DNA of 64,000 nt from Gemmatimonadaceae bacterium. Its GTDB lineage: Bacteria > Gemmatimonadota > Gemmatimonadetes > Gemmatimonadales > Gemmatimonadaceae. Positions 32,723 through 49,576 of the stretch are shown here, one piece after another. The notes below the pieces were generated by a model that was not told the DNA's origin, did not search any database, and worked only from the letters and a program-made list of their open reading frames with translations. The stretch spans positions 1,953,192 through 2,017,191 of the forward strand of contig JAHBVT010000001.1 of NCBI GenBank assembly GCA_019637355.1. Direction: 5' to 3'. The position numbers and the translations under genes were made by a program. The first letter of the stretch is position 1. Each line of letters starts with the position of its first letter.

Positions 32723-33498
32723 GAACCGAACTCCACGGAGAGGCCGTCGTAGGCCGGTTGAATGTCGTCGGGCAGCGCGGCGGCCAGCGCGGCGTGGGAC
32801 GTCTCGTGGGTCAGGTGGGTGAAGTAGCACCGCCGGGCGCCGACTCGACGTGCGGCGTCCACCGCTTCTCCGATCGAGAAGTGCGTGGGATGCGAGGTCC
32901 GGAACAGCGCATTGAGCACCAGGACCTCGGCGCCCCTGAGCGCCACGACCGCCTCGTCCGTGAGCTCCTTGGCGTCGGTGACATAGGCCAGCGGCCCGAT
33001 GCGGTAGCCGAACACGCGCACGCGGCCGTGTGGCAGCGCCACGGCGGTGACGTCGAGGTGCCCGATGCGCGTCGGCACACCCGGCGCAAGCGCTTGCGCG
33101 AAACCCTCGGGCTTGCTGGTGCCGGGGAGCGGCTTCATCGCGGCATCGAAGATGTACGAGAAGCGCCTGGTGAGGCCGTCCAGCGTCTCCTTGGGGCCGT
33201 ACATCGGCAACGCGCCGTCGCGGCGCACCGAAATGGCCCGGATGTCGTCGATGCCGTGCGTGTGGTCGGCGTGCTCGTGCGTGAAGAGCACCGCGTCGAG
33301 GCGATCGATGCCGGCCGCAATCAGCTGCAGACGCAGCTCGGGCGGCGTATCGATGAGCAGGCGCAGGCCGGCGTCTTCCACCACGGCGCCGACACGCGTG
33401 CGCTTGTCGCGCGGGTCCTCGGAGCGGCACACGGCACAGGCGCAGCCGATCTGCGGCACGCCGAAGCTCGTCCCCGTCCCGAGGAAGGTCAGCTTCAC
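32719..33498 (-). CDS. PhnP-like metallo-beta-lactamase-fold phosphodiesterase
   Basis: A 259-residue MBL-fold hydrolase. The opening 'KLTFLGTGTSFGVPQIGC' plus 'CAVCRSEDPRDKRTR' matches the PhnP branch, whose cysteines hold a structural zinc. The di-metal site is 'LFTHEHADHTHGIDDIR' (residues ~73-89). PhnP cleaves 5-phosphoribosyl 1,2-cyclic phosphate in the C-P lyase pathway, but no phn genes are present here. It may act on another cyclic phosphate. GTGA overlaps join it to both pyk upstream and pgi downstream. Confidence 0.85.
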   Translation of the reverse strand: MKLTFLGTGTSFGVPQIGCACAVCRSEDPRDKRTRVGAVVEDAGLRLLIDTPPELRLQLIAAGIDRLDAVLFTHEHADHTHGIDDIRAISVRRDGALPMYGPKETLDGLTRRFSYIFDAAMKPLPGTSKPEGFAQALAPGVPTRIGHLDVTAVALPHGRVRVFGYRIGPLAYVTDAKELTDEAVVALRGAEVLVLNALFRTSHPTHFSIGEAVDAARRVGARRCYFTHLTHETSHAALAAALPDDIQPAYDGLSVEFGS

Positions 33499-34922
33499 AC
33501 CGTCTCCACCTTCAGCTGGTTCGTCGTGCCCGGAACATCGAAGGGCACGCCGGCCGTGATCACCACGCGCTCGCCCGGCACGGCGATCCCGTGCTTCACC
33601 AAGAGCTCACGGGCCAGCGCCGTCATCTGTGTGTAGGTGTCGCAGTGCGGCACGAGGAAGGGCGTCACGCCCCAGGTCATCGCGAGCTGGTTGTAGGTGC
33701 GGATGTTGTCCGTGAGCACGACGATGCGCACGTTCGGCCGTCGTGCCGCGACGATGCGGGCGCTGAAGCCGCTCTTGGTGAAGACGACGATGGTCTGCGC
33801 GCCGAGCAGGCGCACCGCCGTCACGCTGGCCGAGGCGATGGTCTCCTCGACCGTCGCCGTGCCGGGCTTGAGGCGGTCGATGCCCTGCCCGCGCTCCACC
33901 GGCGCCTGCTCGGCGGCGGTCGCGATGCGCCGCATCGCCTGCACCGCCAGCACCGGATGCAGGCCCGCGGCGGTCTCGGCCGACAGCATCACCGCGTCGG
34001 TGCCGTCGAGGATGGCGTTCGCGACGTCGCTGGCCTCGGCCCGCGTCGGGCGCGGGTTCTGGATCATCGACTCCAGCATCTGCGTGGCGGTGATCACCGG
34101 CCGGCCGTAGCGGTTGGCCAGCCCGATGATGCGCTTCTGCTGCAGCGGCACCTGCTCGAAGGGCAATTCGACGCCGAGGTCGCCGCGGGCCACCATCACC
34201 GCGTCGGTGGCCTTGAGGATGGCTTCGATGCGCTCCAGCGCCGAGTCCTTCTCGATCTTGGCGACGACGAGCATCCCCTTGGGTAGCATCGCCTTGAGTT
34301 CGGCGATGTCCTCGGCCCGGCGCACGAAGCTCAGCGCGAGGTAGTCGAGGTCCTGCTCGATGGCGAACTGAATATCCTCGCGGTCCTTGTCGGTGATGCT
34401 CGGCGCGGAGACATCGATGCCGGGGAGATTCATCCCCTTGTTGCTCTTGAGCAGGCCGCCGTAGCGCACCTTCGCGTGGACGCGCGGGGCGTCAACCTTC
34501 GTCACCTCGAGTGCCAGGAGGCCGTCGTCGACGAGAATCGTGCCCCCGACCATTACGTCGGCCGCGAGCGCGTCGTAGGTGATGGGAATCTCCCCCGCCC
34601 CGCACGCGTCTTCCGGCGCGAGCACCAGCGTCTGGCCTTCCTCGATGGTGATGGCCTCGGCCAGCGCACCGATACGGATGCGCGGGCCCTGCAGGTCGCC
34701 GAGGATGGCGATGGGCTTGCCGAGGTCCTGCGCGATGCCGCGGATGTTCTCGACCGTGCGCGCGTGCTGCTCGTGCGCGCCGTGCGAGAAGTTGAGGCGG
34801 GCGACGTTCATCCCCGCGTGGATCAGCCGGCGGATGACATCGGGCGACGCGGAAGCCGGCCCGATAGTCGCGACGATCTTGGTGACGCCGGTGGAGGGGG
34901 TGCCCGCGGGGGGAGTGGTCAC
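33495..34922 (-). CDS. pyk: Pyruvate kinase
   Basis: A 475-residue glycolytic kinase making ATP and pyruvate. Visible are 'KIVATIGPASASPDVI' at the N-terminus and 'GMNVARLNFSHGAHEQHART'. The catalytic Lys stretch 'MLVVAKIEKDSALERIEAIL', 'MVARGDLGVELPFEQVPLQQ' and 'PVITATQMLESMI' follow, and the C-terminal allosteric domain is present. The length is normal. The stop overlaps the start of the phnP-like gene, and the transaldolase gene lies 4 bases upstream. Confidence 0.95.
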   Translation of the reverse strand: MTTPPAGTPSTGVTKIVATIGPASASPDVIRRLIHAGMNVARLNFSHGAHEQHARTVENIRGIAQDLGKPIAILGDLQGPRIRIGALAEAITIEEGQTLVLAPEDACGAGEIPITYDALAADVMVGGTILVDDGLLALEVTKVDAPRVHAKVRYGGLLKSNKGMNLPGIDVSAPSITDKDREDIQFAIEQDLDYLALSFVRRAEDIAELKAMLPKGMLVVAKIEKDSALERIEAILKATDAVMVARGDLGVELPFEQVPLQQKRIIGLANRYGRPVITATQMLESMIQNPRPTRAEASDVANAILDGTDAVMLSAETAAGLHPVLAVQAMRRIATAAEQAPVERGQGIDRLKPGTATVEETIASASVTAVRLLGAQTIVVFTKSGFSARIVAARRPNVRIVVLTDNIRTYNQLAMTWGVTPFLVPHCDTYTQMTALARELLVKHGIAVPGERVVITAGVPFDVPGTTNQLKVETV

Positions 34923-34926
34923 GGGA

Positions 34927-36072
34927 TCAGCGGCCGGTAGCGGCCGCGTGACCGAGCGCGGCCGTCTTCTGTTCGATGCCGGCGATCAGCGTATCGAACG
35001 AGGTCTGGAACGAGGCCAGCCCCTCGGTCAGGAGGCGGTCAGTGACGGCATCAAGGTCGATGCCCACCGTGCCAAGTTCGGCGAGCAGGGAATCTGCCTC
35101 GGCGAGCCCCACGTCCACCGTCCGCTTGGTCACGCCGTGGTCACGATATGCCTCGAGCGTGTTCGGCGGCATCGTGTTGACCGTATCGGGCCCGATCAGC
35201 TCCTCGACGTAGATGGTGTCGCGGTAGGCCGGGTTCTTGGTGCTGGTGCTGGCCCAGAGCGGGCGCTGCACCTGCGCGCCGAGCGCGGCGAGGCGAGCCC
35301 AGCGCTCGCCGCTGAACTTGCGGGTGAAGAGCGCGTAGGCGCGCTTGGCGTTGGCGATGGCCGCCTTGCCCTTGAGTGCAGTGGCGCGGTCGGCCGCGAG
35401 TGTGCCGGCCTTCACCTGCGCGTCGAGGGCGGCGTCGATGGCCGAGTCCACGCGGCTGACGAAGAACGAGGCGACGCTGGCGACGTGTCCCAGCGGCTGG
35501 CCAGCGGCGGCGCGACGCTCGAGGCCCGCGAGGTAGGCGTCGATCACGCGCTCGTGCGCGGCGACGGCGAAGAGCAGCGTGACGTTCACGTTGAGTCCGT
35601 CGCCGATGAGCTGCTCAAGCGCGAGGCAGCCCTCATCGGTGCCTGGGACCTTGATCATCACGTTGGGGCGGTCCACGGTCTGCCAGAGGCGGTGCGCCTC
35701 GGCGACGGTGGCCTTGGCATCGTGCGCGGCCCCGGGCGACACCTCGATGGACACGAAGCCGTCACGCTGCTTCGAGGCATCGTACACTGGGCGGAAGACG
35801 TCGCAGGCGGTGCGCACGTCGTCGGTCTCGACCAGTTCGAAGAGCTCCCACGCGGTCTTGCCGGGCGCGGCGGCCTTCAGCTGCGCATCGTAGGCCGTGC
35901 CCGAGGCCAGGGCCTTTTCGAAGATCGTCGGGTTGGAGGTCATCCCCGTGAGCGCATCGTCGCGCAGGCGGCGGGCGAGCGTGTCGCCCTGCAGGAGGGC
36001 GCGGTCGATGAAGTCGAGCCAGATGGACTGGCCGGCGGCGTGGAGGGCGTGGAGGGGCGTCGGAGCGGACAT
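34927..36072 (-). CDS. tal: Transaldolase
   Basis: A 381-residue pentose-phosphate enzyme of the longer tal type. The conserved 'TSNPTIFEKALASG', the Schiff-base Lys in 'PNVMIKVPGTDEG' and 'VNVTLLFAVAAHERV' are present, as is 'WASTSTKNPAYRDTIYVEEL'. The ATG at 36072 is preferred over the GTG two codons earlier. A minus-strand TAAATT lies at 36108-36113. It is the first gene of the tal-pyk-phnP-pgi run, all separated by four bases or less. Confidence 0.93.
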   Translation of the reverse strand: MSAPTPLHALHAAGQSIWLDFIDRALLQGDTLARRLRDDALTGMTSNPTIFEKALASGTAYDAQLKAAAPGKTAWELFELVETDDVRTACDVFRPVYDASKQRDGFVSIEVSPGAAHDAKATVAEAHRLWQTVDRPNVMIKVPGTDEGCLALEQLIGDGLNVNVTLLFAVAAHERVIDAYLAGLERRAAAGQPLGHVASVASFFVSRVDSAIDAALDAQVKAGTLAADRATALKGKAAIANAKRAYALFTRKFSGERWARLAALGAQVQRPLWASTSTKNPAYRDTIYVEELIGPDTVNTMPPNTLEAYRDHGVTKRTVDVGLAEADSLLAELGTVGIDLDAVTDRLLTEGLASFQTSFDTLIAGIEQKTAALGHAAATGR

Positions 36073-36188
36073 CGGCACGGGACAGGGAGTGGGGGAGGCG
36101 AGCCGTCAATTTACCATCCTGCCGGGGTGAATGGCGCGAAACGCCGCCGCGCGTCAGCTTTCGTGCCGATGCCTTTCGCTCCTGACCG

Positions 36189-38162
36189 ATGCGCCTGAAC
36201 GATCCGCCGTCCGGCCCCAGCGGTGCCGTCCGCCGCGCCTGGTGGTGGCGCCGCCTGCCCCTCACGGCGCAATTAGCGGCGATTGGGATGGTCGTGGCAC
36301 TCGCGTGGTTTCTCACCGCCCGCCTCGCGGCCGACATCGTGGCAGCCGAGGTGCGGTCACGCGCCGAGCAGTTGGACCGCCTGCACCTCGCCGAGGTCGC
36401 TGCCGTGCGGATGCTGGGCTCGCTGAATGGGATGTCGGCGGCGGTACGTGGCTTCGTCGTCTCCGGCGATGAAGCGCACGGCGTGCGGTATGAAGCCGCA
36501 CGGCGCTCGTTCGAGGCCGACGCGAGCGTCGTCGCCGACCAGGTTGCACAGGACCTGAACGTCGTGCGCCGCCTGCAGCGGATGCGGGTGCAGATTGCGC
36601 TGTACGACCAAGAGATTGCGTCACCCAACTTCGAGGTGCGGCGGCGGCAGGGCTTCAACGCCTTTGGCCCAGGCACGCCGGGCCTCGCCCGCGTCGAACG
36701 AGGCGCAAACGTGATCGACGCCCTGCGCACCGAACACGCACGGATGCTGCGCCTGGTGCGCGAGAACCTGACGGCGCTGGAGGCCGAAATCGAGACGGCC
36801 ACCGCACGGAACGAGTGGGAGAGTTTCCTCATCCGCGCGGCAGCGGTGATGGTCTTCCTGCTGGCGCTGACGCTGATGATGCGCCTGCTGTCCTACGCCT
36901 TGAATCAAGTCGTGCGCGCCGCCGAGGCCTTGGATGCCGGCCGCTACGAGGATGCGCGGCTGCCCAACCACCACAAGGCGCCCAATGCCGAGATGGCGCG
37001 ACTGGCGCTGACCTTCGATCGCCTCGCGCAGAGCATCGCCATCCGCGAGCGGCAACTGCAGGAGGACATCGAGAAGCTCAAGGAGCTTGAGCGGCTCAAG
37101 GCCGACTTCGTGTCCACGGTGAGCCACGAGTTGCGGACGCCGCTGACGTCAATGCGCGGCGCCCTCGGCCTCCTGCTCGGTGGTGCCGGCGGCGAGCTGA
37201 GCCCGAAGGGCCGCGAGCTCCTGCGCATCGCCCTGACCAACACCGACCGCCTCATCCGGCTCATCAACGACATTCTCGACATCGAGAAGATGGACGCTGG
37301 CCACGTACAGATCCGGCGCGACCGCGTACGGCTGCGTCCGCTGCTCGAGACGACGATCGCCGGCCTCGACGGACTCTCGCGCGACACCGGTGTCCCCCTG
37401 GTCCTGCACGAGATGGAAGAGGTCGAGCTGATCGGCGACTCCGACCGCCTCATCCAGGTCTTCACCAACCTGATCTCCAACGCCGTCAAGTTCTCGCCCA
37501 AGGGCGAGCCGGTGGAAGTCTCGGCCACGCTGGAACCCGAGGGGGTGCGCATCGGGGTGCGCGACCACGGCCCGGGCATCGCGCCCGAGTTCCAGTCTCG
37601 CATCTTCGGCCGCTTCCAGCAGGCCGGCGGGGCGGCCTCGCGCCAGAGCGGTGGCACCGGCCTCGGACTCAGCATCGCCAAGGCCATCACCGAGTTGCAC
37701 GGCGGCCGCATCGGCTTCGAGAACGTCGAGGACGGCGGCACGCGGTTCGGCGTGGTGCTGCCCATCGCGCCGGAGCCGGAGAGCGTCGAGGATCGGCGAC
37801 CGGCCGTGCTGGTGGTCGAGGACGACGACTCGATGCGCGAGGTGCTCTGCACGCTCTTCGAACCCTTCGCCCACGCCATCGCCGCCCGCGACGCCGCCGA
37901 AGCGATGCGTGGTCTCGGCCGCTTCCCCGTGAAGGTCGTCGTGGTCGACCACGGGTTGCCCGGAATGGACGGCCTGGCGTTGGCCCGGCGTCTGCGCGCC
38001 GATCCGCGCTATCGCGGGCTTCCCGTCCTCTTGTACTCGGCGACGGAGTTTGGCGTGAAGGACCTCAAGGACTCCGGCATCCGCATCGGCGACGCCTTCG
38101 TGAAGACGCGCGACTCCGAGCAGTCGCTGCTCGAACGCGTCAAGCGCGAGTTGCAGGGCTGA
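36189..38162 (+). CDS. Membrane hybrid histidine kinase with CHASE3-like sensor and C-terminal receiver
   Basis: A 657-residue sensor kinase. One membrane helix at ~28-48, a periplasmic helical domain at ~50-210 resembling CHASE3 ('AAVRGFVVSGDEAH'), and a second helix at ~217-238 are followed by a HAMP-like linker. The kinase core has the H-box 'FVSTVSHELRTPLTSMRGAL', N-box 'NLISNAVKFSPKGEP', 'VRDHGPGIAPEF' and 'GGTGLGLSIAKA'. The C-terminal receiver has 'VLVVEDDDSMREVL' and Asp in 'VVVVDHGLPGMDG'. It converges on the GT2 gene with a 7-base gap, so it probably senses envelope conditions for the polysaccharide locus. Confidence 0.92.
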   Translation: MRLNDPPSGPSGAVRRAWWWRRLPLTAQLAAIGMVVALAWFLTARLAADIVAAEVRSRAEQLDRLHLAEVAAVRMLGSLNGMSAAVRGFVVSGDEAHGVRYEAARRSFEADASVVADQVAQDLNVVRRLQRMRVQIALYDQEIASPNFEVRRRQGFNAFGPGTPGLARVERGANVIDALRTEHARMLRLVRENLTALEAEIETATARNEWESFLIRAAAVMVFLLALTLMMRLLSYALNQVVRAAEALDAGRYEDARLPNHHKAPNAEMARLALTFDRLAQSIAIRERQLQEDIEKLKELERLKADFVSTVSHELRTPLTSMRGALGLLLGGAGGELSPKGRELLRIALTNTDRLIRLINDILDIEKMDAGHVQIRRDRVRLRPLLETTIAGLDGLSRDTGVPLVLHEMEEVELIGDSDRLIQVFTNLISNAVKFSPKGEPVEVSATLEPEGVRIGVRDHGPGIAPEFQSRIFGRFQQAGGAASRQSGGTGLGLSIAKAITELHGGRIGFENVEDGGTRFGVVLPIAPEPESVEDRRPAVLVVEDDDSMREVLCTLFEPFAHAIAARDAAEAMRGLGRFPVKVVVVDHGLPGMDGLALARRLRADPRYRGLPVLLYSATEFGVKDLKDSGIRIGDAFVKTRDSEQSLLERVKRELQG

Positions 38163-38169
38163 GCGACAC

Positions 38170-39603
38170 TCAGGCCGGCTTCTTTGTGCCGAAGCCCTCG
38201 CGCGTCATCTTGCCCCAACTCTCCACGCCGCGCAGGTGCTTCCAGAAGGACTGCAGCCGAAAGAACACCGTCATCTGCCGGTAGCCGAGCCCTTCAACGA
38301 CGGCAAAGCCGAGCAGCTTCCAGAAATCGCGACGCCGGCGGTAACGCTTGAACGAGAACTCCTCGAGCAGGACGGCCCAGATGGACAGGATGGTGCCGTA
38401 ACCAATCGCGACCAAGAAGAACAGCAGCGCGAAGCCGAAGTCCACGGCCCCCAGCGCCAAGCCGAGCGCGAGGGCCAGCCAGCCGCACAGTTCGACCAAC
38501 GGCGCGATGAGTTCGCCGAAGACGTAGAACGGCACTGCCAGCATCCCGACCGGCCCGTAGCGCGGGTTGAAGAGCATCGTGCGATGCGCCCACAACGTAC
38601 CGATGAGGCCGCGATGCCAACGCTCGCGCTGCCGCCCAAGTACGCGGGCCGACGCCGGCACTTCGGTCCACGCCACCGGATCGGGAATGAAGGGCAGCGT
38701 CGCCTCGATTCGATGCTCCTTCAGGTAGCGGTGCAGACGTACGACGAGGTCCATATCCTCAGTGACGTTGCCCGTCTTGTATCCCCCGATCGCCAGCAGA
38801 TACTTCTTTCGGAACAAGCCGAAAGCGCCGGAGATGATGAGGTTGCCGCCGAGGTGGTTCCAACCAAGGCGGCCGAAGAGAAACGCACGCAGGTACTCGA
38901 CAACCTGGCAGCCGACCATCCAGCGACTGCTCACCCGCGCCTCGGTGACGCGGCCCATCTCCACGGTGCAGTCGTTGGCAACGCGGATGGTGCCGCCCAC
39001 CGCGGCGACATTGGCGCCGAGGAGGAAGGGGCGGGCCAAGCGCATCAGTGCGTCAGGCTCGATCAGCGTGTCGGCGTCGACCGCGACGACGAACGGGTGC
39101 CGCGCCGCGTTCATCGCGGCATTGAGGGAGTCGGCCTTGCCGCCGTTCTCCTTGTCGATGACGAGCAAGCGCGCGAAGCGCCGCGAGCGGTAGTAGCCGC
39201 GCACCGCCTGCGTGCGGATCGACACCGGGAACGCCGGCGGCACCTCGTACAGGTCGAACTCCCGCATCAGGGCCTGCATCGTGGCGTCCTTGGAGCCGTC
39301 GTTGACCACCACGACCTCGAGGTTGGGATACTCGAGGGTGAGGAAACTCAGCAGGCTGGAGCCGATCGTGACCTCCTCGTTGTAGGCCGGCACCAGCAGT
39401 GACAGGGGCGGGAGTGCGTCGGAGGCGAGCAGGCGCTGCAGGTGTTCGTCCGCCGCGAGGCGCCAGTGGCTCCAAAGCTCGGGAATCGAGAGGAGCAAGA
39501 GTACCGCATAGGCGGTGCTGAGCAGCAGCAGGTACACGAGCGCCGCGTGGTCACCCCACCACAGCAGGGTGCGTGCCGCGTCGAGCCAGTCGAGGCCGGT
39601 CAT
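38170..39603 (-). CDS. Processive family 2 glycosyltransferase (PgaC/BcsA-like)
   Basis: A 477-residue membrane synthase. Two N-terminal hydrophobic segments precede the catalytic GT-A domain: 'LSLLVPAYNEEVTIGSSLLS', 'VVVNDGSKD', DAD in 'FVVAVDADTLIEPD', TED in 'NVTEDMDLVVRLH' and the processivity motif 'LGRQRERWHRG'. Three or more C-terminal helices form the channel. The motif set is that of synthases polymerising beta-linked sugars (cellulose, poly-GlcNAc, hyaluronan types); which polymer cannot be told. The ATG start overlaps the HEAT-repeat gene stop in ATGA. Confidence 0.93.
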   Translation of the reverse strand: MTGLDWLDAARTLLWWGDHAALVYLLLLSTAYAVLLLLSIPELWSHWRLAADEHLQRLLASDALPPLSLLVPAYNEEVTIGSSLLSFLTLEYPNLEVVVVNDGSKDATMQALMREFDLYEVPPAFPVSIRTQAVRGYYRSRRFARLLVIDKENGGKADSLNAAMNAARHPFVVAVDADTLIEPDALMRLARPFLLGANVAAVGGTIRVANDCTVEMGRVTEARVSSRWMVGCQVVEYLRAFLFGRLGWNHLGGNLIISGAFGLFRKKYLLAIGGYKTGNVTEDMDLVVRLHRYLKEHRIEATLPFIPDPVAWTEVPASARVLGRQRERWHRGLIGTLWAHRTMLFNPRYGPVGMLAVPFYVFGELIAPLVELCGWLALALGLALGAVDFGFALLFFLVAIGYGTILSIWAVLLEEFSFKRYRRRRDFWKLLGFAVVEGLGYRQMTVFFRLQSFWKHLRGVESWGKMTREGFGTKKPA

Positions 39604-40670
39604 CCCTGCCCCATCTCCAACAAGGCGCCGTCGGAGAGGCCGCTGACCATCGTGGCCATATCGCGGGCGAAGCGGTCGCTGCCCTCACGCGCGGCGCGCA
39701 GCGCGGCGCGGCCCCGCTCCCCGAGTTGCGCCAGCGCCAACGCGGCGTGCAGGCGCACCTGCCAGACCGGATCGCCGACCAGGGGCGCGAGCAACGGCGT
39801 GGCACCGGCGGCGCCGAGTTCGCCGAGCGAACGCGCGGCGGCGGCACGCACCGTGGGATCGTGGTCGGCCACCAGGGCCGCCAAGGCGCGCGCCGCGTCG
39901 GGCCCGGCAAAGCGGCCCAACGCTCGAGCCACGCTGCGCCGCACGAAGGCCGAGGGATGCGCGACGTGGGTCAGCGAGGCATCGAGTGAGCGCGGATCGT
40001 CCAGCGAGGCCGCCAGCGTCACCCACGCCGCCACCTCGGCGGCCTCCGTGCCGTGGCGGATGCGCAACGCCAGCGGCACCGCCGCTTCCGCCGCCGACTG
40101 CCGGAGCACGCCCGTGAGATAGCCGCGCACCACTTTCGGCATCTCGAAGATGTCATCCATCACCTGGCCGTAGAGCGCCGCGTCGGCGACGCGCGGCAGC
40201 GCCGTCGCGGCCGCGATCTGCACGGCCGGATGCCGGTCGCCCAGCAGTTCCCGCACCGCGTGGCGGTCCCTCGTGGTCCCGACGATGGAGAGCGCGCGGG
40301 CGGCCTCGAGGCGCCGCCACCAGAAGCGCGAGCGACGACGGCGCATCGCCAGCTGCATCCAGGGCTCGCCGCGCAGCGCGACCGCCAGCTCGTTGCGCTG
40401 GGCTGCAGGGATGGTCTCCCGCGCCAGCAAGGACACATACCCCACCGCCGTGCCGCGCGGCAGGTTGCGCAGCGCCCGCACCACCGGCTCCGGGTGCGCA
40501 CCGGCCACAATCCAGTCGCGGAGGGGCGCGGCCAACGCCGTCTTGCCGGCGATGAAGGCACCGCGGCGGGCGCGGTCGTACTGCCGCCGGATGACGACGA
40601 AAGCGAGTAGCAGGCTCAGGAACACCAACTGCACCACGCCGACCACGCCAAGGACGACTTGGGCGGTCAC
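39600..40670 (-). CDS. HEAT-repeat membrane protein of the polysaccharide locus
   Basis: A 356-residue protein. One N-terminal helix ('LGVVGVVQLVFLSLLLAFVV', residues ~8-27) anchors it. The rest is helical repeats of HEAT type, clearest in 'HPSAFVRRSVARALGRFAGP', 'DHDPTVRAAAARSLGELGAA' and 'GDPVWQVRLHAALALAQLGE'. HEAT arrays bind proteins and often scaffold complexes. The GTG start (40670) overlaps the Hpt-REC gene and the stop overlaps the GT2 gene, so all three should be made in fixed proportion. I infer a scaffold or regulatory subunit of the synthase. Confidence 0.85.
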   Translation of the reverse strand: MTAQVVLGVVGVVQLVFLSLLLAFVVIRRQYDRARRGAFIAGKTALAAPLRDWIVAGAHPEPVVRALRNLPRGTAVGYVSLLARETIPAAQRNELAVALRGEPWMQLAMRRRRSRFWWRRLEAARALSIVGTTRDRHAVRELLGDRHPAVQIAAATALPRVADAALYGQVMDDIFEMPKVVRGYLTGVLRQSAAEAAVPLALRIRHGTEAAEVAAWVTLAASLDDPRSLDASLTHVAHPSAFVRRSVARALGRFAGPDAARALAALVADHDPTVRAAAARSLGELGAAGATPLLAPLVGDPVWQVRLHAALALAQLGERGRAALRAAREGSDRFARDMATMVSGLSDGALLEMGQG

Positions 40671-42592
40671 TCCGGGGTACCCCGCGCCCGCCAGCCAGTA
40701 ATCTTGGCCATCAACACGCGCAGGCTCACCGGTTTGGCGAGATAGTCTAGCGCGCCAGCCCGGATGGCGCGGAGCTGGTCCGCCTCCGACGCGTGCACGG
40801 ATATAAACACCACACGGAACACGCCCGGACGCTCCACCCGCAATCGTTCGTGCAGCGAGAATCCATCGAGCCCTGGAAGGTCCACGTCCATCAGCACGAT
40901 TGGCGAGCGGCCGCGCACGCGCATCGTGCGCAGGCCCTCCAGCGCGGCCGGGCCGTTCGGATAGCGCACCCACGTGAGGCCACGCGCCGCAAGGGCGAAG
41001 GTGACGAGGTCGGCCAGGGCCGCATCGTCCTCCACGACGATGACGTCCGGCGCGATACCGGTGTCCGCCGGGTCCCAGCGCCGCACGTACTCGCCGTTGT
41101 CGCGCGCGGCCAGCCACGCCTCCTCGGCCAAGCCCGCCAAGCGCAACGCCGACGGGTCGGCGCCGGGCAACAGCTCCACGACGCCAGCGCTCCACGGCAC
41201 GAGGTCGGCCCTCGAGGCCTCGGCGTACGGCTCGAGGCGCGCCAGCGCGACGGCCGCCTTCATCGGGAAGAGGAACATCGCCGCCGTCTCGTCGCGGAAG
41301 CCGGCCTGCACACGCTCGCTCGAGAGCGCTGAGGCCAAGAGTCGCAGCTCGCGGTGCCAGAGGGCGGCACGCTGCACGCCGTCGGGGGGATCGAGCGGAC
41401 GTAGCACAGCGACTGCCATCGGCTGGGCCAGAGCCGCAGCGGCAACGAGCGCTTCGTCGAAGGCACGGACCGCGCGCTGCGGCAGCGGGAGCCGCGTCCC
41501 GGGATGGATGCCGCGCGAGAGCTGCTTCTGCCGCGCCGCCTCGAGCAGGCGCTCGATGCGCCGTAGCAACTCCTCGGCCACGACGGGCTTTGACTGGAAG
41601 TCATCGGCACCCGCGACGAACGCTGCGGTCCGGGTGTCCACGTCCGTGGAACCGGACACCAACATCAATGGCAGGTCACGGAAGCGGTCGTCCGTCTTGA
41701 GCTCGCGCGTCACGACGAGGCCGTTCACGCCGGGAAGCCCGATGTCGAGCAGCACCAGCGCCGGCTGCACCTCTTCGATGGTCTCGGCGATCTGGCGCGC
41801 GTCCGTCCGCGCCTCGACGAACATCCCTTGTCGCTCCGTCATCGCGCGCAGCACCGCGATCATATCCTCGTCGTCGTCCACGATCAGCAGCGTGACACCC
41901 ACCAGGCCGGCGCGCGTCGCCAAGGACTCGGCCATCAACAGAATTTCGCGTGCGTCCGTGGAGGATTCCAGCAACCGTGCGCCTGCGGCACGGGGCGCCA
42001 CCTGACCGTCAGGGCCACGCAGCAAGAGGAGAGGCACACCCTCAGGCACCGACAGCGGTACGTGGGCCCCGGCGATGACGATTGTCGGCGGCGTCGCCTC
42101 AAAGACCGCGCCCACACCCAGCGCCGTGACCTGCTCCACGGCGTAGCCGCGGTGCATCGCCTCCGCGACGATGGCGGGACCAGCGGCGTCCGGCACCTCA
42201 ACCAAGAGCACGCGGTGCTCCGGTGCCTTGTCGGCGGCGGACTCGGGTTCCGCCGCGCCCTCCGGTTTGAGCGAGGCCGCGAGCGCCCGCACGAACTGGC
42301 GCACGATTCCCGCGCGCCGGTCCCGGTCGAGCGCCGGGTCGCCCGCCCACTTGACCGCGACCGGTTCCAGTGCGCCTGCGAGGCGGCTGGCCTCGTGAAA
42401 CCCGTAGCTGCCGGCCGTCCCGTGCACCCGGTGCAGTTCGCGCCGCAGCGCGTCCACGACCTCCGGCGCGGCCGGGTCGCGCAATAGCTGCTCGGCAAGT
42501 TCCGAAAACGCCGTCAGCGTGTTCCCGCTCGTCGCGAGATACTTCTCGCGCAACTCGGCGAGCACGGCATTGAGATCGGCGGAACCGGCCAT
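40667..42592 (-). CDS. Hpt-REC-(degenerate domain)-REC response regulator
   Basis: A 641-residue cytosolic regulator; the start at 42592 ('MAGSADLNAVLAELREKY') excludes a basic upstream stretch. Residues ~10-105 are an Hpt domain with phospho-His in 'LHRVHGTAGSYGFHEA'. A first receiver at ~225-350 has 'LLIVDDDEDMIAVL' and Asp in 'LVLLDIGLPGVNG'. A middle domain at ~360-500 looks like a GGDEF fold without the GGDEF motif. A second receiver has 'VIVVEDDAALADLV', Asp in 'IVLMDVDLPGLDG' and 'YLAKPVS'. No DNA-binding output is present. It likely relays phosphate and acts by protein contact on the coupled HEAT/GT2 pair. Confidence 0.88.
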   Translation of the reverse strand: MAGSADLNAVLAELREKYLATSGNTLTAFSELAEQLLRDPAAPEVVDALRRELHRVHGTAGSYGFHEASRLAGALEPVAVKWAGDPALDRDRRAGIVRQFVRALAASLKPEGAAEPESAADKAPEHRVLLVEVPDAAGPAIVAEAMHRGYAVEQVTALGVGAVFEATPPTIVIAGAHVPLSVPEGVPLLLLRGPDGQVAPRAAGARLLESSTDAREILLMAESLATRAGLVGVTLLIVDDDEDMIAVLRAMTERQGMFVEARTDARQIAETIEEVQPALVLLDIGLPGVNGLVVTRELKTDDRFRDLPLMLVSGSTDVDTRTAAFVAGADDFQSKPVVAEELLRRIERLLEAARQKQLSRGIHPGTRLPLPQRAVRAFDEALVAAAALAQPMAVAVLRPLDPPDGVQRAALWHRELRLLASALSSERVQAGFRDETAAMFLFPMKAAVALARLEPYAEASRADLVPWSAGVVELLPGADPSALRLAGLAEEAWLAARDNGEYVRRWDPADTGIAPDVIVVEDDAALADLVTFALAARGLTWVRYPNGPAALEGLRTMRVRGRSPIVLMDVDLPGLDGFSLHERLRVERPGVFRVVFISVHASEADQLRAIRAGALDYLAKPVSLRVLMAKITGWRARGTPE

Positions 42593-42729
42593 CGGAGGGG
42601 GAGAAGGGTCGGGGCTGCGCCGGGCTTGGCACTGGGAATTATCGCGCACGGAGGCGGCCGAGGACAGCCCGATGTCAGAACGTGTTGCGCCGGTTGCGAG
42701 TGTAGCGGTCGCTGAGCGACATTGCGCCG

Positions 42730-43095
42730 ATGCGACTTCTTTGCGCCGACGACGAACCGGACATCCGGACCATCCTGGAGCTCGCCCTCGGGCTGGAACC
42801 CCGCATCGAGGCCGAGATCCTGCCCTCAGGTGCCGAACTGCTCCGGCGAGTGAAGGACCACAAGCCGGATGCCATTCTGCTCGACGCGATGATGCCGGAA
42901 CTGGACGGCTACGAGACCTGCCGCCGCCTCAAGGCCGACCCGGAGACGGCACATATCCCGGTCGTCTTCCTCACCGCCCGTGCCCAGCGCGGAGAACAGG
43001 ATACCGCGCTTGAGGTCGGCGCGGTGGCCTGCCTGACCAAGCCGTTTGACCCGCTCACGCTCGCCGGCGAGCTTCTCGTCACCCTCGGACAGTAG
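42730..43095 (+). CDS. Stand-alone receiver (CheY-like) protein
   Basis: A 121-residue single-domain response regulator: acidic pocket 'MRLLCADDEPDIRTIL', phospho-Asp in 'AILLDAMMPELDGYETCRR', Thr in 'VVFLTARAQ' and Lys in 'CLTKPFDP'. It has no output domain. Its stop is 4 bases before the ATG of the TIM-barrel protein, and it is divergent from the Hpt-REC gene across 137 bases, which hold a shared control region. It could accept phosphate from the Hpt domain. Confidence 0.9.
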   Translation: MRLLCADDEPDIRTILELALGLEPRIEAEILPSGAELLRRVKDHKPDAILLDAMMPELDGYETCRRLKADPETAHIPVVFLTARAQRGEQDTALEVGAVACLTKPFDPLTLAGELLVTLGQ

Positions 43096-43099
43096 GCGG

Positions 43100-45802
43100 A
43101 TGCAGCCGCGCGCGCGCTTCGTGGTACTGTTGGCGCTTGGCACGATGGCCCTGCTCGCCGCGCGCGCCGCAGGTAGGGCGTCCCCAGAACGGACCGTGGA
43201 CTGCGACATTGCCGCCGCGAATCTGGTCATCGATAGCGGGTGGACCCACTGGCGGAACGGCGACGTGGCCGCTGCGGAAGGCGCGTTTCGCCGAGGGGTC
43301 TCCTTCTGCCGCGAAGCCCGACGCGCCTGGACGGGACTCGGCTACGTTGCGCTGCGGCGCGACCTCGTCGACCTCGCGATCGCGCGCTTCGACACCGCTT
43401 TCGCGGTTGATAGCGTCCGCGACACCGACGAAGCCATCGGGCTCGGCCTCGCGACCTTCCGCGCCGGACAACTGGCCCGCGCCCGCGCCGCATTCCTCCT
43501 CGCCGATTCGCTCGCGCCCGGCGATTCCGTGGTCCGCGACTACCTGCAGCGCATTCCCGCACCGGTCGACGCAGCGGCGCTACCGCCGCGCCCGCGGCCG
43601 ACGCAGCGGCAACTCGCGGCGCGCACCGGGCGGCGCATCTTCGAGATCCCCGACGGTCGCGGCGGCTGGCGACCGTTCTGGATGAAGGCGGTCAATCTCG
43701 GGGCTGCCCTGCCGGGCAAGCACCCCGCCGAGTTCCCGCCAGACGACGGCACCTACGACGCGTGGATCCGCGACCTCGCCGAACTCGGTGCCAACAGCGT
43801 GCGCGCCTATACCGTCCACCCACCGCACTTCTACCGCGCGCTGCGCGAGTGGAACCTCGCGCACCCGGATTCCGCGCTCTGGCTGGTACACGGCGTGTGG
43901 ACGGAACTGCCGCCCGGCGAACACGAGGAGGACTACGACGACCCGCAGTGGCACGCGGCGTTCCTCGCGGAGATGCGCGACGTGGTGGACCTCATTCACG
44001 GGCACGCGGCGATCCCGCATCGGCCGGGCCACGCGAGCGGGATGTACGAAGCCGACGTCTCGCCCTGGACGTTGGGCTACATCCTCGGTCGCGAGTGGGA
44101 ACCGTATTCCGTCCAAGCCTATGCGGCGCGGCATCCCACACGCACGAGCTACCGCGGGCGCTACGTCACTGTGGACGGCGGCAACGCGGTGGACGTGTGG
44201 TTGGCCAGCGTCGCCGACTCGATGGTTGCCTACGAGACGGCGCGCTGGAACACCCAGCGACCACTCGCCTACACCAACTGGCCGACGCTCGACCCCCTGC
44301 ACCACCCCACCGAGTCCAGTCGCGCCGAAGAATCCGAGTGGCTCCGGCGCCGCGGTGAGCGCGTTCCGGAGGCGTCCCGAGAGTATGACAACGACGTCAT
44401 CGCGCTCGACGCGATGCGGATGCACGCGACGCCGGAGTTCGCGGCCGGGCTGTTCGCCTCGTACCACGCCTATCCGTACTATCCAGACTTCCTCGTGCTC
44501 GACCCCGGCTACGCGCAGGCGCGCAGCCCGGAGGGACCGTCGCACTACTTCGGCTACCTGCGCGAGCTCATTGAACACCACGGCGAAATGCCAGTCGTGA
44601 TTTCGGAGTACGGCGTACCAAGCAGCCGCGGCAATGCGCACCTGCAACCGCAGGGCTGGCATCACGGCGGGCACGACGAGCGTGCGCAGGCGGAGATCAA
44701 TGCGCGACTCACCCGCGACATCGCCGCCAGCGGCGCAGCGGGCGTGGGGCTGTTCGCGCTCATCGACGAGTGGTTCAAGAAGAACTGGCTGGTGATCGAC
44801 TTCGAGCAGCCGCTGGAGCGCAATCGACTGTGGCTCAATGCGCTGGACGCGGAGCAGCACTACGGCCTCATCGCGATGCGAGCGGGCCACCGGGATTCGG
44901 CCATCGTGATTGACGGGATGCGCGACGACTGGGCGGGGCGCGCACCGCTCTACACGCGCCAGGCCGGCACCAGCGACTCCCATCCGGCGCGGCGACTCGA
45001 CGCACTCTGGGTCGCGCACGATGAGGCCTACGTGTACCTGCGCCTCGACGTCGGCACCGTGGATTGGGGCAGCGCACGCTACCTCATCGGGATCGATACC
45101 TACGACCGCGCGCGGGGTGACACGCGGATGCCGTACACAGGGAAGACGAGCCCCGTGGGACTGGAGTTCGTGCTGGACCTCGCTGGTCCGGATGCCTCAC
45201 GCCTCCTCGTGGACCCTCCGTACAACCTGTATCGTTTCGCGGCCATCCCCGGTACACGGCCCATCGAATTCCAGTCCGTGTACAACCGGCCGTTCGAGAC
45301 TCACGCCAACACCGACGGGCGCTACGACACCGTGTGGGTCACGCCCAACCGCCGCACCATCGGACGCGACGGCCGCGTCTTCCCGGCACAGCGCATCGAG
45401 CGCAATCTGCTGCGACACGCACGGCAGACTGAGACCTCGCTCGCCGACTGGTATGCCGACAGCGCCACCGGCACGATTGAGATCCGTCTGCCCTGGGGCT
45501 TGCTGCACGTGATGGATCCCTCGTCGCACCACGTGCTCTTCGGTGTGGACGGCAGCGACCCGGCGGGCCGGGGCACCGATGGATTCCGCTTCGTCGTGCA
45601 GTCGTACAATCCTGCCTCGCCCCGCGCGGTACGGACCGGGGAGTTGCTGCCTGCCGCTGCAGCCGGCACCGGGTTCGCGGCGCCGCCCACCTGGCGTTGG
45701 CCCGCGTGGGAGTCACCGCGATGGCACGCCGAGCGCAAGCCGGCCTTCGCCGCGATGCAGGAGGCCTTCCGGGCCATTCCCGAGTCGGGCCCGAAGCCAT
45801 AG
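43100..45802 (+). CDS. Exported TPR / glycosidase-like TIM-barrel / beta-sandwich protein
   Basis: A 900-residue protein; the ATG at 43100 gives a signal or anchor helix ('FVVLLALGTMALLAARAAG'). Residues ~35-155 are TPR-like helices. Residues ~190-570 look like a clan GH-A barrel: 'MKAVNLGAALPGKHP', 'LAELGANSVRAYTVHPPHF', 'WTLGYILGREWEPYS' (candidate acid/base Glu) and 'MPVVISEYGVPSSRG' (candidate nucleophile Glu). Residues ~610-860 resemble DOMON/CBM9-type sandwiches ('IVIDGMRDDW', 'DEAYVYLRLDVGTVDW'). I infer a periplasmic hydrolase or transglycosylase trimming the polymer made by the linked GT2. The fold call is firmer than the activity. Confidence 0.75.
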   Translation: MQPRARFVVLLALGTMALLAARAAGRASPERTVDCDIAAANLVIDSGWTHWRNGDVAAAEGAFRRGVSFCREARRAWTGLGYVALRRDLVDLAIARFDTAFAVDSVRDTDEAIGLGLATFRAGQLARARAAFLLADSLAPGDSVVRDYLQRIPAPVDAAALPPRPRPTQRQLAARTGRRIFEIPDGRGGWRPFWMKAVNLGAALPGKHPAEFPPDDGTYDAWIRDLAELGANSVRAYTVHPPHFYRALREWNLAHPDSALWLVHGVWTELPPGEHEEDYDDPQWHAAFLAEMRDVVDLIHGHAAIPHRPGHASGMYEADVSPWTLGYILGREWEPYSVQAYAARHPTRTSYRGRYVTVDGGNAVDVWLASVADSMVAYETARWNTQRPLAYTNWPTLDPLHHPTESSRAEESEWLRRRGERVPEASREYDNDVIALDAMRMHATPEFAAGLFASYHAYPYYPDFLVLDPGYAQARSPEGPSHYFGYLRELIEHHGEMPVVISEYGVPSSRGNAHLQPQGWHHGGHDERAQAEINARLTRDIAASGAAGVGLFALIDEWFKKNWLVIDFEQPLERNRLWLNALDAEQHYGLIAMRAGHRDSAIVIDGMRDDWAGRAPLYTRQAGTSDSHPARRLDALWVAHDEAYVYLRLDVGTVDWGSARYLIGIDTYDRARGDTRMPYTGKTSPVGLEFVLDLAGPDASRLLVDPPYNLYRFAAIPGTRPIEFQSVYNRPFETHANTDGRYDTVWVTPNRRTIGRDGRVFPAQRIERNLLRHARQTETSLADWYADSATGTIEIRLPWGLLHVMDPSSHHVLFGVDGSDPAGRGTDGFRFVVQSYNPASPRAVRTGELLPAAAAGTGFAAPPTWRWPAWESPRWHAERKPAFAAMQEAFRAIPESGPKP

Positions 45803-45829
45803 GCGGGGCGGCGTGACCGCCGCCTCGCG

Positions 45830-47368
45830 TCAGAAGGTCCAGCGCCCCCCGAGGGTCGCAGCGCCGTAGCGGTAGTCGCTCGCGGTGATGGCACCGGCGC
45901 CGGCAACGTTCGCGTAGGTCAGGCCGACCAGAACCTCGCGGCCAGGCGCAGCACGGTAGCCAACGCGCATCGTCGCCCGCGGCACAACCGCGTGCTCGAG
46001 CGGCGAGTTCTCGAAACCAACAAGCTGGCTGGCCAGCCCGACATCGCCGACGAGCAGGAGCCCCAGCTCGGCCGTGCGCTCGCGAGACACCGACAGTTCC
46101 GTCGTGGCCCACCGCTGCGGTGCAAAGAACACGCCGAATTGCGGCTGGGACCACGAGGCCTCGCGATGCGTCAGCGCCAGGCCGGTACCGCGGCGCGGTG
46201 TCCACCGGAGTGTGGTCGTCACGGTCGTGCGCGAGACGTCCTGGCTAACGCCCGCGCCCTCGACCTGCCCGAGGGATCCGGCAAGACCCACCTGCACCCT
46301 CGGCCGCAGCGCATAAGCGGCGTCCACATCGACCACGTTGAACATCATCTCGCGCTGCGCGGTCGCACGCACTTCGTCGAAGGGCTCGCGCGACGCGCCG
46401 CCTGAGAGCCGCAGCCCGCGGCGCGGCGATCCGCTCGCGCGCAGCGCGCCGCGCAGCCTTGTGCCCCCGGCGCCGAGCGCAGCGGGATACTGCACCACCC
46501 CGAACTCGGCGCGCGTGGCCACACCGCGATTCGCCAGTCGGCCAGCGACGAAGGCCGTCACTCCGGGCATCACGAGAGCACCGCCGTCGGACACGCTGGC
46601 CTCACGCAGCCGCGCCGCGACGCCAACGCGACTGTTCCCCCAGCCTGCGGCATCCACGGTCACTTCGCGGTGCCAGAGCGTGTTGTCTTCGGAGTCCTTG
46701 GCGCCGACGACGGTCCACGCGACTGCAGGGCGCCGCTCCGTGCGCACCCAAGCCATCTGCTCCTGCGCTCCACGATGCCCCGGCTCAATCGCCAGTGCTC
46801 GGGCCAGCGCCGCCTCCGCCGCACGCGCATCGCCGCGCCAACGACGGAACTGCCCGAGCAGCATCCAGGCCTCGGCGTCATCCGCGCGGCGGCTCAGCCA
46901 ATCCTCGAGGCCGCGCTCGGCGTCGGGAATTCGATCGCTCCAGGCCAAGGCCTGCGCGCGGCCGACGACGGCGTCGCGGTAGTCGGCATCGCGCACGAGG
47001 ACACTGTCGTACTGGGCCAGGGATTCGGGAAACCGCGAGGCCCAGGCCGACGTGCGTGCCAGCGCCACGCGACCCTCGAGGTCGCCGGGCTCGAGCCGCA
47101 CGTAGAGGCGGTGCGCCGCGAGTGCCGGCTCGAATCGGTTGGCCCAGGCGTGGAGTAACGCCACGCGGAAGAGCACGCGCGTGGAGTACGCCGAGTCGCT
47201 GCGCACGACGGCGTCGTAGGCGGCGAAGGCGGCACGATGATCGTCACGCGCCCAGGCCGAATCGCCCTGCGCGATGCGCGCCTCGAGCGCCGCCCGCGTG
47301 GGCTCCTGCTGCGCGGCGGCGACGCTCGCCCAGACCAGAAGGGCCAGCCCCGCCGCCGCGCCCCGCAT
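45830..47368 (-). CDS. YaiO-like outer-membrane protein: TPR domain plus beta-barrel
   Basis: A 512-residue exported protein. A signal peptide ('GLALLVWASVAAAQQ') is followed by TPR repeats at ~25-215 ('PESLAQYDSVLVRDADYRDA', 'AEAALARALAIEPGHRGAQE'). A C-terminal half of alternating beta strands ends in Phe ('YRYGAATLGGRWTF'), as barrels do. This TPR-barrel plan is that of exopolysaccharide exporters PgaA and BcsC and of YaiO. It starts with a TGATG overlap after the DUF2911 gene and converges on the TIM-barrel gene across 27 bases. It is the likely export or docking pore of the locus. Confidence 0.82.
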   Translation of the reverse strand: MRGAAAGLALLVWASVAAAQQEPTRAALEARIAQGDSAWARDDHRAAFAAYDAVVRSDSAYSTRVLFRVALLHAWANRFEPALAAHRLYVRLEPGDLEGRVALARTSAWASRFPESLAQYDSVLVRDADYRDAVVGRAQALAWSDRIPDAERGLEDWLSRRADDAEAWMLLGQFRRWRGDARAAEAALARALAIEPGHRGAQEQMAWVRTERRPAVAWTVVGAKDSEDNTLWHREVTVDAAGWGNSRVGVAARLREASVSDGGALVMPGVTAFVAGRLANRGVATRAEFGVVQYPAALGAGGTRLRGALRASGSPRRGLRLSGGASREPFDEVRATAQREMMFNVVDVDAAYALRPRVQVGLAGSLGQVEGAGVSQDVSRTTVTTTLRWTPRRGTGLALTHREASWSQPQFGVFFAPQRWATTELSVSRERTAELGLLLVGDVGLASQLVGFENSPLEHAVVPRATMRVGYRAAPGREVLVGLTYANVAGAGAITASDYRYGAATLGGRWTF

Positions 47369-47934
47369 CACTTGGCGGCCCAGTCGACCGCCAGTTCGAG
47401 GCGGCCCCAGCTGATGTTGAGCACGCCGCGCGCCGACTGCGCATCCGCCGGCACGATCGCGATCTGCAGCGACTCCTGCACCTCCGCACGCTGCCGCGCG
47501 CGCATCGGCACCCGGACCAGATCCTTGGACGCGTCGTACTCGGTGCCCCACTGGCCGGTGTTGTTGTTGATGATCAGGAAGTACTGCCCGCTCTGACGGA
47601 TCGTGTAGAGCGAGTAGGCGCCGGCCGGCACGTCGCGGCCGCCGATGACCAAGTCGGCCTCGGTGCGCAGCGTCGTCGAGGTGTTGGCGCCGGTACGCCA
47701 CACCGTGCCGTCAGCGGCGAGTTCCGAGGGCACGTCGCGGCCGCGCGCGTGCGGCTGGCCGTAATCGATGACGACGTTCTTGGGCGTCGGCGCTGGCTGG
47801 CCCTGCACACGGGGCGTGCTGAGCGGCATCGTGACCGTGGCGCGGGTGCTGAGCGGGGCGCGCAGGCCGGACTGCTGGGCCGCGAGCGGCGCCGCCACGA
47901 GGGCGGACAGGGCGAGAACGAGGACCTTTCGCAT
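47368..47934 (-). CDS. DUF2911 exported protein
   Basis: A 188-residue protein with signal peptide 'MRKVLVLALSALVAAPLAAQ'. DUF2911 marks are 'VVIDYGQPHARGRDV', 'TVWRTGANTSTTLRTEADLV' and 'VPAGAYSLYTIRQSGQYFLI', a beta-rich fold. These proteins are periplasmic or surface-exposed in Bacteroidota and Gemmatimonadota, with no known function. One-base overlap couples it to the YaiO-like gene, so it may be an accessory of the same export complex or simply a shared transcript. Confidence 0.88.
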   Translation of the reverse strand: MRKVLVLALSALVAAPLAAQQSGLRAPLSTRATVTMPLSTPRVQGQPAPTPKNVVIDYGQPHARGRDVPSELAADGTVWRTGANTSTTLRTEADLVIGGRDVPAGAYSLYTIRQSGQYFLIINNNTGQWGTEYDASKDLVRVPMRARQRAEVQESLQIAIVPADAQSARGVLNISWGRLELAVDWAAK

Positions 47935-48619: not shown

Positions 48620-49576
48620 ATGCCATCGTCCAATGGGCACCACCCCGTCCGAATCGTCTCGCAGCGCACCGGCCTCACGCCGGACGTGCTGCGGGCCTGG
48701 GAACGCCGCTACGGCGCGGTGTCCCCGATTCGCTCGCCGGGCGGGCAGCGCCACTACAGCGACGCGGACATCGAACGGCTCTCGCTGCTTTCGCGCGCCT
48801 CGCGGGCGGGGCGACAGATCGGCCAGCTGGTGCCGCTACCCAACGAGGAGCTGCAGCGGCTCATCGAGAGCGATGAGCGCCAGTCGCGCGAGCGCGTAGG
48901 CATCGGGCCGGACCAGCCGGCGGTGGAATCCTTTCTCTCGTCTGCCTTGATGGCCGTCGAGGAGTTCGATGCCCCGCGGCTCGAGCAGACGCTGCGCGCG
49001 GCGGTGCTCCGGATGCCGAGCGAGGACGTCCTCGACCAAGTCATCGGGCCCCTGCTCTTCACCGTGGGCTCGCTGTGGCACCAAGGATTGCTGCGGCCGG
49101 CCAACGAACACCTGGCGACCTCCACCATCCGACGCGTGCTGGTGTGGATGTCGGACCTGACGGTGCCTGACACGCACGCACCGGTGATCATCGTCGGCAC
49201 ACCGGCGAGCCAGCTGCACGAACTCGGCGCGATGCTGGCGGCGACCACCGCCGCCAGTTGCGGCTGGCGCGTGGCGTATCTCGGGCCCAACCTGCCGGCA
49301 GATGAACTCGCGCGGGCGGTTCAGTTCGCCAAGGCGCGGGCCCTCGCGCTGTCGATTGTGTATCCCACGGACGACCCCGAGCTGCCCGGCGAACTTCGTG
49401 CGCTCCGCGCTGCGCTTCCAACCGGCGTGGGCCTCGTCATCGGCGGGAGCGGCGCGGCGCACTACGCCGACGCGATCCGCGAGATCGGCGCGCACCAACT
49501 CGCCTCTCTCGCGGGGCTCCGGCAGTGGCTACGCCAGCACGGCGTCAGCGCAACGGCTGGTCGAGCGCTTCGATAG
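48620..49576 (+). CDS. CarH/LitR-like MerR-family regulator with B12-binding domain
   Basis: A 318-residue transcription factor. The MerR helix-turn-helix is at ~8-75 ('VSQRTGLTPDVLRAWERRYG', 'SPGGQRHYSDADIERL'). A four-helix cap domain carries 'SLWHQGLLRPANEH', an exact W-x9-E-H motif that in CarH packs the adenosyl group and supplies the upper ligand. The Rossmann B12 domain has 'ASQLHELGAMLAAT', where the His is the expected lower ligand, and 'GWRVAYLGPNLP'. CarH represses in the dark and is released by light. Light sensing here is inferred. The stop overlaps the convergent M19 gene by 32 bases. Confidence 0.88.
   Translation: MPSSNGHHPVRIVSQRTGLTPDVLRAWERRYGAVSPIRSPGGQRHYSDADIERLSLLSRASRAGRQIGQLVPLPNEELQRLIESDERQSRERVGIGPDQPAVESFLSSALMAVEEFDAPRLEQTLRAAVLRMPSEDVLDQVIGPLLFTVGSLWHQGLLRPANEHLATSTIRRVLVWMSDLTVPDTHAPVIIVGTPASQLHELGAMLAATTAASCGWRVAYLGPNLPADELARAVQFAKARALALSIVYPTDDPELPGELRALRAALPTGVGLVIGGSGAAHYADAIREIGAHQLASLAGLRQWLRQHGVSATAGRALR

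Follow-up and report, generated by a model that had tools for sequence, protein, structure and literature searches.

A candidate synthase-dependent exopolysaccharide system with a HEAT-repeat synthase partner and a phosphorelay regulator in Gemmatimonadota

A survey from 2020 recognized five synthase-dependent exopolysaccharides and mentions no HEAT-repeat component (PMC7112194); NfrA/NfrB, which uses an MshEN domain, was added as an exopolysaccharide system in 2021 (PMC8669469). Here we analyze a cluster of eight genes at positions 36189-47934 of a 64,000-nucleotide stretch, the window, from a Gemmatimonadaceae bacterium (GCA_019637355.1, contig JAHBVT010000001.1, positions 1,953,192 to 2,017,191 of the forward strand). 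The cluster encodes a family-2 glycosyltransferase (GT2), a HEAT-repeat protein, an exported TIM-barrel protein (TIM protein), an outer-membrane barrel protein, three signaling proteins and a DUF2911 protein. Judged from sequence, it most likely represents a synthase-dependent exopolysaccharide system distinct from those for cellulose, poly-N-acetylglucosamine (PNAG), alginate, Pel and Nfr. The system is probably undescribed; no description of GT2 combined with HEAT repeats, with or without the TIM protein and barrel, was found in the open-access literature, so an earlier one may exist elsewhere. Overall, we give a probability of roughly 60% to the reading that the locus specifies a trans-envelope polysaccharide machine with a HEAT-gated synthase, switched by a phosphorelay in this lineage.

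Three general features of synthase-dependent systems are present, namely a processive inner-membrane GT2, an exporter made of tetratricopeptide repeats (TPRs) and a barrel, and a putative glycosidase in the same cluster. Like the window, the Pga system combines a GT2 synthase (PgaC), an exporter with TPRs and a 16-strand barrel (PgaA) and a periplasmic glycosidase-type protein (PgaB); a deacetylase also occurs in some relatives of the window locus from other phyla. Unlike Pga, the window locus has no match to the PgaD model and no PgaB-type deacetylase of carbohydrate esterase family 4 (CE4), its TIM protein is not PgaB, its GT2 is separate from PgaC in the tree and scores below the cut-off of the PgaC model, and it possesses a HEAT subunit and a phosphorelay regulator. 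Bcs shares the GT2 synthase, the TPR-barrel exporter (BcsC is the closest solved fold) and a periplasmic glycoside hydrolase, but the window synthase lacks PilZ and has a HEAT partner, and no BcsB model matches. The window exporter resembles PelB, and PelD carries a decayed GGDEF domain with an I-site, as do the regulators of several relatives; Pel, however, has a GT4 enzyme (PelF) and PelDEG, the window GT2, HEAT and histidine-phosphotransfer (Hpt) and receiver (REC) domains. NfrB-NfrA-YbcH of Escherichia coli (PMC8669469) likewise pairs a GT2 synthase with a TPR outer-membrane barrel, but without a HEAT protein, a protein of glycoside hydrolase (GH) clan GH-A or a phosphorelay, and the MshEN c-di-GMP domain fused to the GT2 in Nfr is absent from the window GT2. 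In E. coli yaiP-yaiO-yaiS, finally, a GT2 also lies beside an outer-membrane barrel; YaiP is not part of the GT2 clade, and the window barrel, with its TPRs and 16 strands, has no Pfam YaiO match. That the locus encodes a synthase-dependent exopolysaccharide system, as proposed in a preliminary description of the window, is supported by the co-conservation of its genes, the exporter-type barrel and the GH-A-type TIM protein.

The GT2 gene (38170..39603, minus strand) encodes a processive enzyme of 477 aa with about four transmembrane segments (TMs), the putative polymer synthase, assigned from Pfam, motifs and tree. Domain calls on the eight proteins were made with Pfam and NCBIfam models; on the GT2 only GT2-type Pfam models match, and neither PilZ nor MshEN is found. 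D102 and the DAD (DxD), ED and QRERW (QxxRW) motifs are kept in 82-83 of 83 relatives. The best NCBIfam match is PgaC/IcaA, at 128 bits versus a cut-off of 422, and a profile search against solved structures returns partial GT2 matches. In the GT2 tree the window protein lies in a clade of its own, and the two halves of the tree correspond to HEAT-linked and HEAT-less loci. PgaC, YaiP and BcsA of E. coli and the other GT2s of the genome stand outside both halves on long branches.

The neighboring gene (39600..40670, minus strand) encodes a membrane-anchored HEAT-repeat protein, identified by Pfam, synteny and a gene fusion, and shares 4 bases with each of the regulator gene and the GT2 gene. 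Its single N-terminal TM is followed by a basic stretch, and therefore the HEAT repeats should be cytosolic. Among 69 HEAT loci, which include about seven duplicates (the same genomes under two names) and thus about 60 independent ones, HEAT has GT2 behind it in the same orientation in 65, the others being cases of contig ends or over-long open frames; in 53, a regulator ending in a receiver lies ahead of HEAT, also on its strand and at near-constant spacing. In a Spirochaetota locus (L140; loci and genomes carry L and G numbers) one chain of 1021 residues carries both TM-HEAT and GT2, and this fusion is the strongest sign that the HEAT protein is a synthase subunit. Nearly constant adjacency and the fusion support HEAT as a core synthase partner. 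In this locus (L140, 3-8328) the fusion gene is preceded by a regulator with ODP (diiron metallo-beta-lactamase), GGDEF and REC domains and followed by two TIM paralogues, an order which hints that oxygen may be sensed upstream of the synthase.

Within the phylum, 200 genomes were searched and all eight families were mapped in 40 stretches around homologs. Strong TIM homologs number 22, counting the window's own genome, and HEAT homologs about 33. The full set is present in four genomes of the genus (again counting the window's own), with rearrangements, while in a member of another family (G032/L084) the genes for hybrid kinase, lone receiver, regulator, HEAT, GT2, TIM and barrel proteins are consecutive on one strand. 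To reach further, the TIM alignment was scanned against 84,980 species genomes; from the 582 relatives found, the best 79 loci were read, and with three plasmid loci from Deinococcus, Paenibacillus and Planococcus they make up the 82 loci discussed here. Many of the contigs are short, and draft contigs understate neighbors in the following counts. GT2, HEAT, TIM and barrel occur together in 28 of the 82 loci, from several phyla; GT2+TIM+barrel in 16, TIM+barrel in 18, and GT2+HEAT+TIM in 6. The combination of GT2, HEAT and TIM spans about nine phyla, with a barrel in most. HEAT-linked loci belong to Gemmatimonadota, Acidobacteriota, Nitrospirota, Myxococcota/Deltaproteobacteria, Hydrogenedentota, Eiseniibacteriota, Deinococcota, Bacillota and (fused) Spirochaetota; HEAT-less loci (GT2+TIM+barrel) to Bacteroidota, Cloacimonadota, Caldifarciminota, Ignavibacteriota and Delongiibacteriota. 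The preliminary description had made its proposal depend on conserved gene neighborhoods, and the set is indeed kept together across genomes and phyla; because it recurs in many independent assemblies, an assembly or gene-calling artifact was dropped as an explanation.

Some loci depart from this pattern. Two Bacillota loci with GT2, HEAT and TIM have no exporter barrel alongside, which is expected because Bacillota have no outer membrane; Bacillota-centered genome searches and plasmids yielded no further examples, so that the monoderm argument comprises these two loci. When searched against plasmids, the TIM protein found matches and the window HEAT protein none. On the Planococcus plasmid (L186, 4949-12384), genes for a polyphosphate-polymerase-domain protein, DUF4956 and CotH directly precede TIM-HEAT-GT2. 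In L119, L146 and L179 (Cyanosarcina, Thermus), a TIM protein was found and no GT2, HEAT or barrel was detected nearby.

Three signaling proteins accompany the synthase genes in the window, all identified with Pfam: a hybrid sensor histidine kinase with the order TM-CHASE3-HAMP-HisKA-HATPase-REC (36189..38162, plus strand), a regulator with the order Hpt-REC-(decayed GGDEF)-REC (40667..42649, minus strand, likely start near 42592) and a lone single-domain receiver of 121 aa (42730..43095, plus strand). The parts of a multistep phosphorelay are thus present, namely a kinase with its own receiver, a separate Hpt and a terminal receiver, with intact phospho-residues (H73, D302 and D588 in the regulator). 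None of the three contains a DNA-binding domain recognized by Pfam. In almost every Gemmatimonadota locus the regulator gene lies immediately upstream of HEAT, mostly with an overlap of about 4 bases; in Holophagae a receiver occupies this place. Congeners that have the complete set carry the hybrid kinase gene next to the cluster, and in G032/L084 this gene heads the run of seven. The lone receiver is found again next to the regulator in L065-L069, L074, L084, L109, L122, L125 and L164.

An alignment of 32 regulators (the window's and those of 31 relatives) discloses a graded series in the segment between the two receivers, which corresponds to a GGDEF domain preserved intact in relatives. 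In L084, L101 and L125 the domain is intact (RSEDVV[AS]RWGGEEF, with I-site), and in L122 nearly so; in L083, L095 and L096-L100 the I-site is kept and the active site altered. In the window's clade both the active site (A-site) and the RxxD I-site are decayed, and a group of relatives at the order level lacks the domain but retains Hpt-REC-HEAT-GT2. Where the I-site is missing (20 regulators), the Hpt histidine and the aspartate of the terminal receiver are always present; among regulators with an I-site, three have lost the histidine and four the aspartate (three of these to Glu).

The exporter gene (45830..47374, minus strand, likely start 47368) encodes, according to an AlphaFold2 model with a pLDDT (predicted local distance difference test) of 90.2, six helical TPRs followed by a barrel of 16 strands. 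Among solved structures it is most similar to E. coli BcsC, PelB and PgaA; a sequence-profile search against solved structures retrieves mainly TPR scaffolds. The protein is therefore of the polysaccharide-exporter type, as first proposed, and belongs to no unrelated family. Its earlier label as YaiO-like has to be abandoned: no match to Pfam YaiO (PF19413) appears at E 0.1, and the barrel has 16 strands; as a positive contrast, a protein of L072 (6673-7476) matches PF19413 at 3.6e-53. This true YaiO protein (plus strand) and another in L098 (10781-11584, plus strand) flank Hpt-HEAT-GT2 clusters without TIM and TPR-barrel genes, which suggests that the same synthase may use two alternative outer-membrane parts, TPR-barrel or YaiO.

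The TIM protein (43100..45802, plus strand) was characterized by model, fold search and conservation. Its model (pLDDT 82) comprises TPRs, an eight-stranded barrel and a C-terminal beta-sandwich; E332/E334 lie after strand 4 and E503 at the end of strand 7. This is the arrangement of clan GH-A, whose TIM barrels carry one catalytic Glu behind strand 4 and another at the end of strand 7, and the window residues are kept in 99-101 of 103 relatives. E332 or E334 is a candidate acid/base and E503 a candidate nucleophile. Among solved structures, the fold search ranks GH157 best, followed by GH5, GH72 and GH50; the match to GH157 has an E-value of 1.3e-11, but TM-scores of 0.27/0.44 and an identity of 12%. 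Since these TM-scores are low, we assign no glycoside hydrolase family. A Pfam search with 16 members returned TPR families and no glycosidase model, and the sequence-profile search against solved structures mainly TPR scaffolds. By fold and by the geometry of its catalytic residues, the protein is of the GH-A type, in line with the glycosidase-like character first attributed to it. In L094 (5843-8653, genome G133) in-frame stops break up the TIM gene, probably a decaying copy; the adjacent barrel gene is intact. A CE4 deacetylase gene lies between TIM and barrel in Nitrospirota L149 and ahead of TIM in the Holophagaceae locus L132, hinting at an N-acetylated polymer in those lineages; a gene matching it in position and size, and recognized by these alone, is found in L150, L153, L156, L166 and L168. 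No CE4 match is found in the eight window proteins, and one distant partial match in the genome.

Several of these observations weigh against our overall reading. The window genes form several transcription units on two strands where relatives have one run; given the single run in G032/L084, we regard the genes as one coherent set whose split arrangement here arose by local rearrangement. In Deltaproteobacteria, Nitrospirota, Bacillota and Deinococcus, HEAT-GT2 has no receiver next to it, and this is mostly so outside Gemmatimonadota and Holophagae; hence the receiver is not a general switch and, judged by gene content, the family in general is not tied to a phosphorelay. The contrast between I-site and phospho-sites rests on few independent events and, because the losses fall in two clades, is suggestive and no proof. 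The low TM-scores leave the family and substrate of the TIM protein unfixed. Finally, seven GGDEF matches elsewhere in the genome mean that cyclic di-GMP (c-di-GMP) could act via an unrecognized receptor.

The last point leads to the strongest alternative, according to which the synthase system is real and c-di-GMP still controls it through such a receptor (HEAT, the GT2 as with PgaC, or, by analogy with PelD, the decayed GGDEF), the phosphorelay being a second input. We consider this rather unlikely, but it draws on the seven GGDEF matches, on the relatives' regulators with intact GGEEF and I-site or with a retained I-site (L122 included), on the GGDEF-REC regulator before the Spirochaetota fusion, and on PelD, which senses c-di-GMP through a decayed GGDEF with an I-site (PMC8461298). 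Against it stand the loss of the A-site and RxxD I-site in the window regulator, the disappearance of GGDEF from order-level relatives that retain Hpt-REC-HEAT-GT2, and the lack of any PilZ match in the genome. The preliminary description had held that known systems use PilZ or GGDEF control and that a phosphorelay acts here instead, no PilZ or intact GGDEF being seen. As PelD illustrates, not all known systems use PilZ; the absence of PilZ extends to the whole genome, but a decayed GGDEF is present rather than none. The proposed replacement fits this genome, with its missing PilZ and decayed A- and I-sites, and is weakened by relatives whose regulator has an intact GGEEF or an I-site like that of PelD. 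In the window's lineage, control by a phosphorelay without c-di-GMP is plausible, and it looks derived from a dual ancestor (GGDEF and phosphorelay), because the GGDEF sites are decayed and the phospho-acceptors persist, no PilZ is detectable, and relatives keep GGDEF.

It is improbable that GT2, TIM and barrel proteins make a cell-bound glycan, e.g. a periplasmic or surface-attached oligosaccharide with TIM as transglycosylase, rather than a secreted exopolysaccharide. The TIM fold is nearest to GH157 and GH72 enzymes, the GH72 members being beta-1,3-glucan transglycosylases, and the Bacillota versions lack an exporter; yet almost all diderm loci have a BcsC/PelB/PgaA-type TPR/16-strand barrel next to TIM, and a polysaccharide deacetylase occurs in other phyla, as in Pga/Pel-type secretion. 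That the phosphorelay genes are chance neighbors, or regulate transcription elsewhere, would agree with the use of both strands here and with a kinase and lone receiver adjacent in only part of the lineage, but is very improbable given the place of the regulator, or a receiver, directly upstream of HEAT in Gemmatimonadota and Holophagae and the lack of DNA-binding domains.

Our preferred reading, HEAT gating with a phosphorelay switch, builds on computed gene content, conservation, fusion, folds and site conservation or decay, from which enzyme activities, polymer, direction of phosphotransfer and REC-HEAT contact are inferred as follows. With its intact processive-GT2 motifs, the GT2 would polymerize a sugar nucleotide and move the chain through the inner membrane. 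In the periplasm the chain would pass the TPR/TIM-barrel protein, whose GH-A-type enzyme may bind it and trim or transglycosylate it, and it would leave through the TPR/16-strand barrel. The membrane-anchored HEAT protein would be a synthase subunit through which the synthase is switched. Phosphoryl groups would travel in four steps from the kinase histidine to the aspartate of the kinase receiver, to His73 of the Hpt and to Asp588 of the terminal receiver, with the lone receiver as a possible branch or sink. The terminal receiver lacks a DNA-binding output and is encoded by a gene overlapping that of HEAT, so it probably acts through direct contact with HEAT-GT2. In its ancestral form the regulator would also have had a GGDEF that made or sensed c-di-GMP, decayed here.

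All eight reading frames were confirmed at 36189-47934, and the gaps of -4, -4, 137, +4, 27, -1 and 7 bases are reproduced given a regulator ATG near 42592 and a barrel start at 47368; genes, domains and spacings are as first described. The remaining gene of the cluster encodes an exported DUF2911 protein (47368..47934, minus strand; Pfam). It is found in congeners and in L068, L074 and L105, and is an accessory in this family only. Upstream of the locus lie genes for transaldolase, pyruvate kinase and phosphoglucose isomerase, downstream those for DUF4760 and a MerR/B12-binding regulator (48620-49576, plus strand), which has the domain set of CarH-type light-sensing repressors. The transaldolase and pyruvate kinase genes adjoin HEAT-GT2 both in the window (33495-36078) and in a family-level relative (L082, 11543-14103), a conserved chromosomal position beside central sugar metabolism. 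No known RNA families were found in the region.

More broadly, we tentatively propose, at somewhat less than even odds, a widespread additional class of synthase-dependent polysaccharide systems, in which a HEAT subunit gates the synthase and takes lineage-specific receiver input (c-di-GMP through a GGDEF with I-site, a phosphorelay through Hpt-REC, or both), phosphotransfer having replaced c-di-GMP as the direct post-translational switch in the window's lineage. If true, a further system in many phyla, with Geothrix, Deinococcus, Paenibacillus and Planococcus among its cultured carriers, would fill a considerable gap in biofilm biology, and the HEAT subunit a testable answer to how a synthase is switched without PilZ. 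The regulator series, with GGDEF intact, reduced to the I-site, decayed or deleted, would then be a naturally preserved record of how a synthase came under a different signal.
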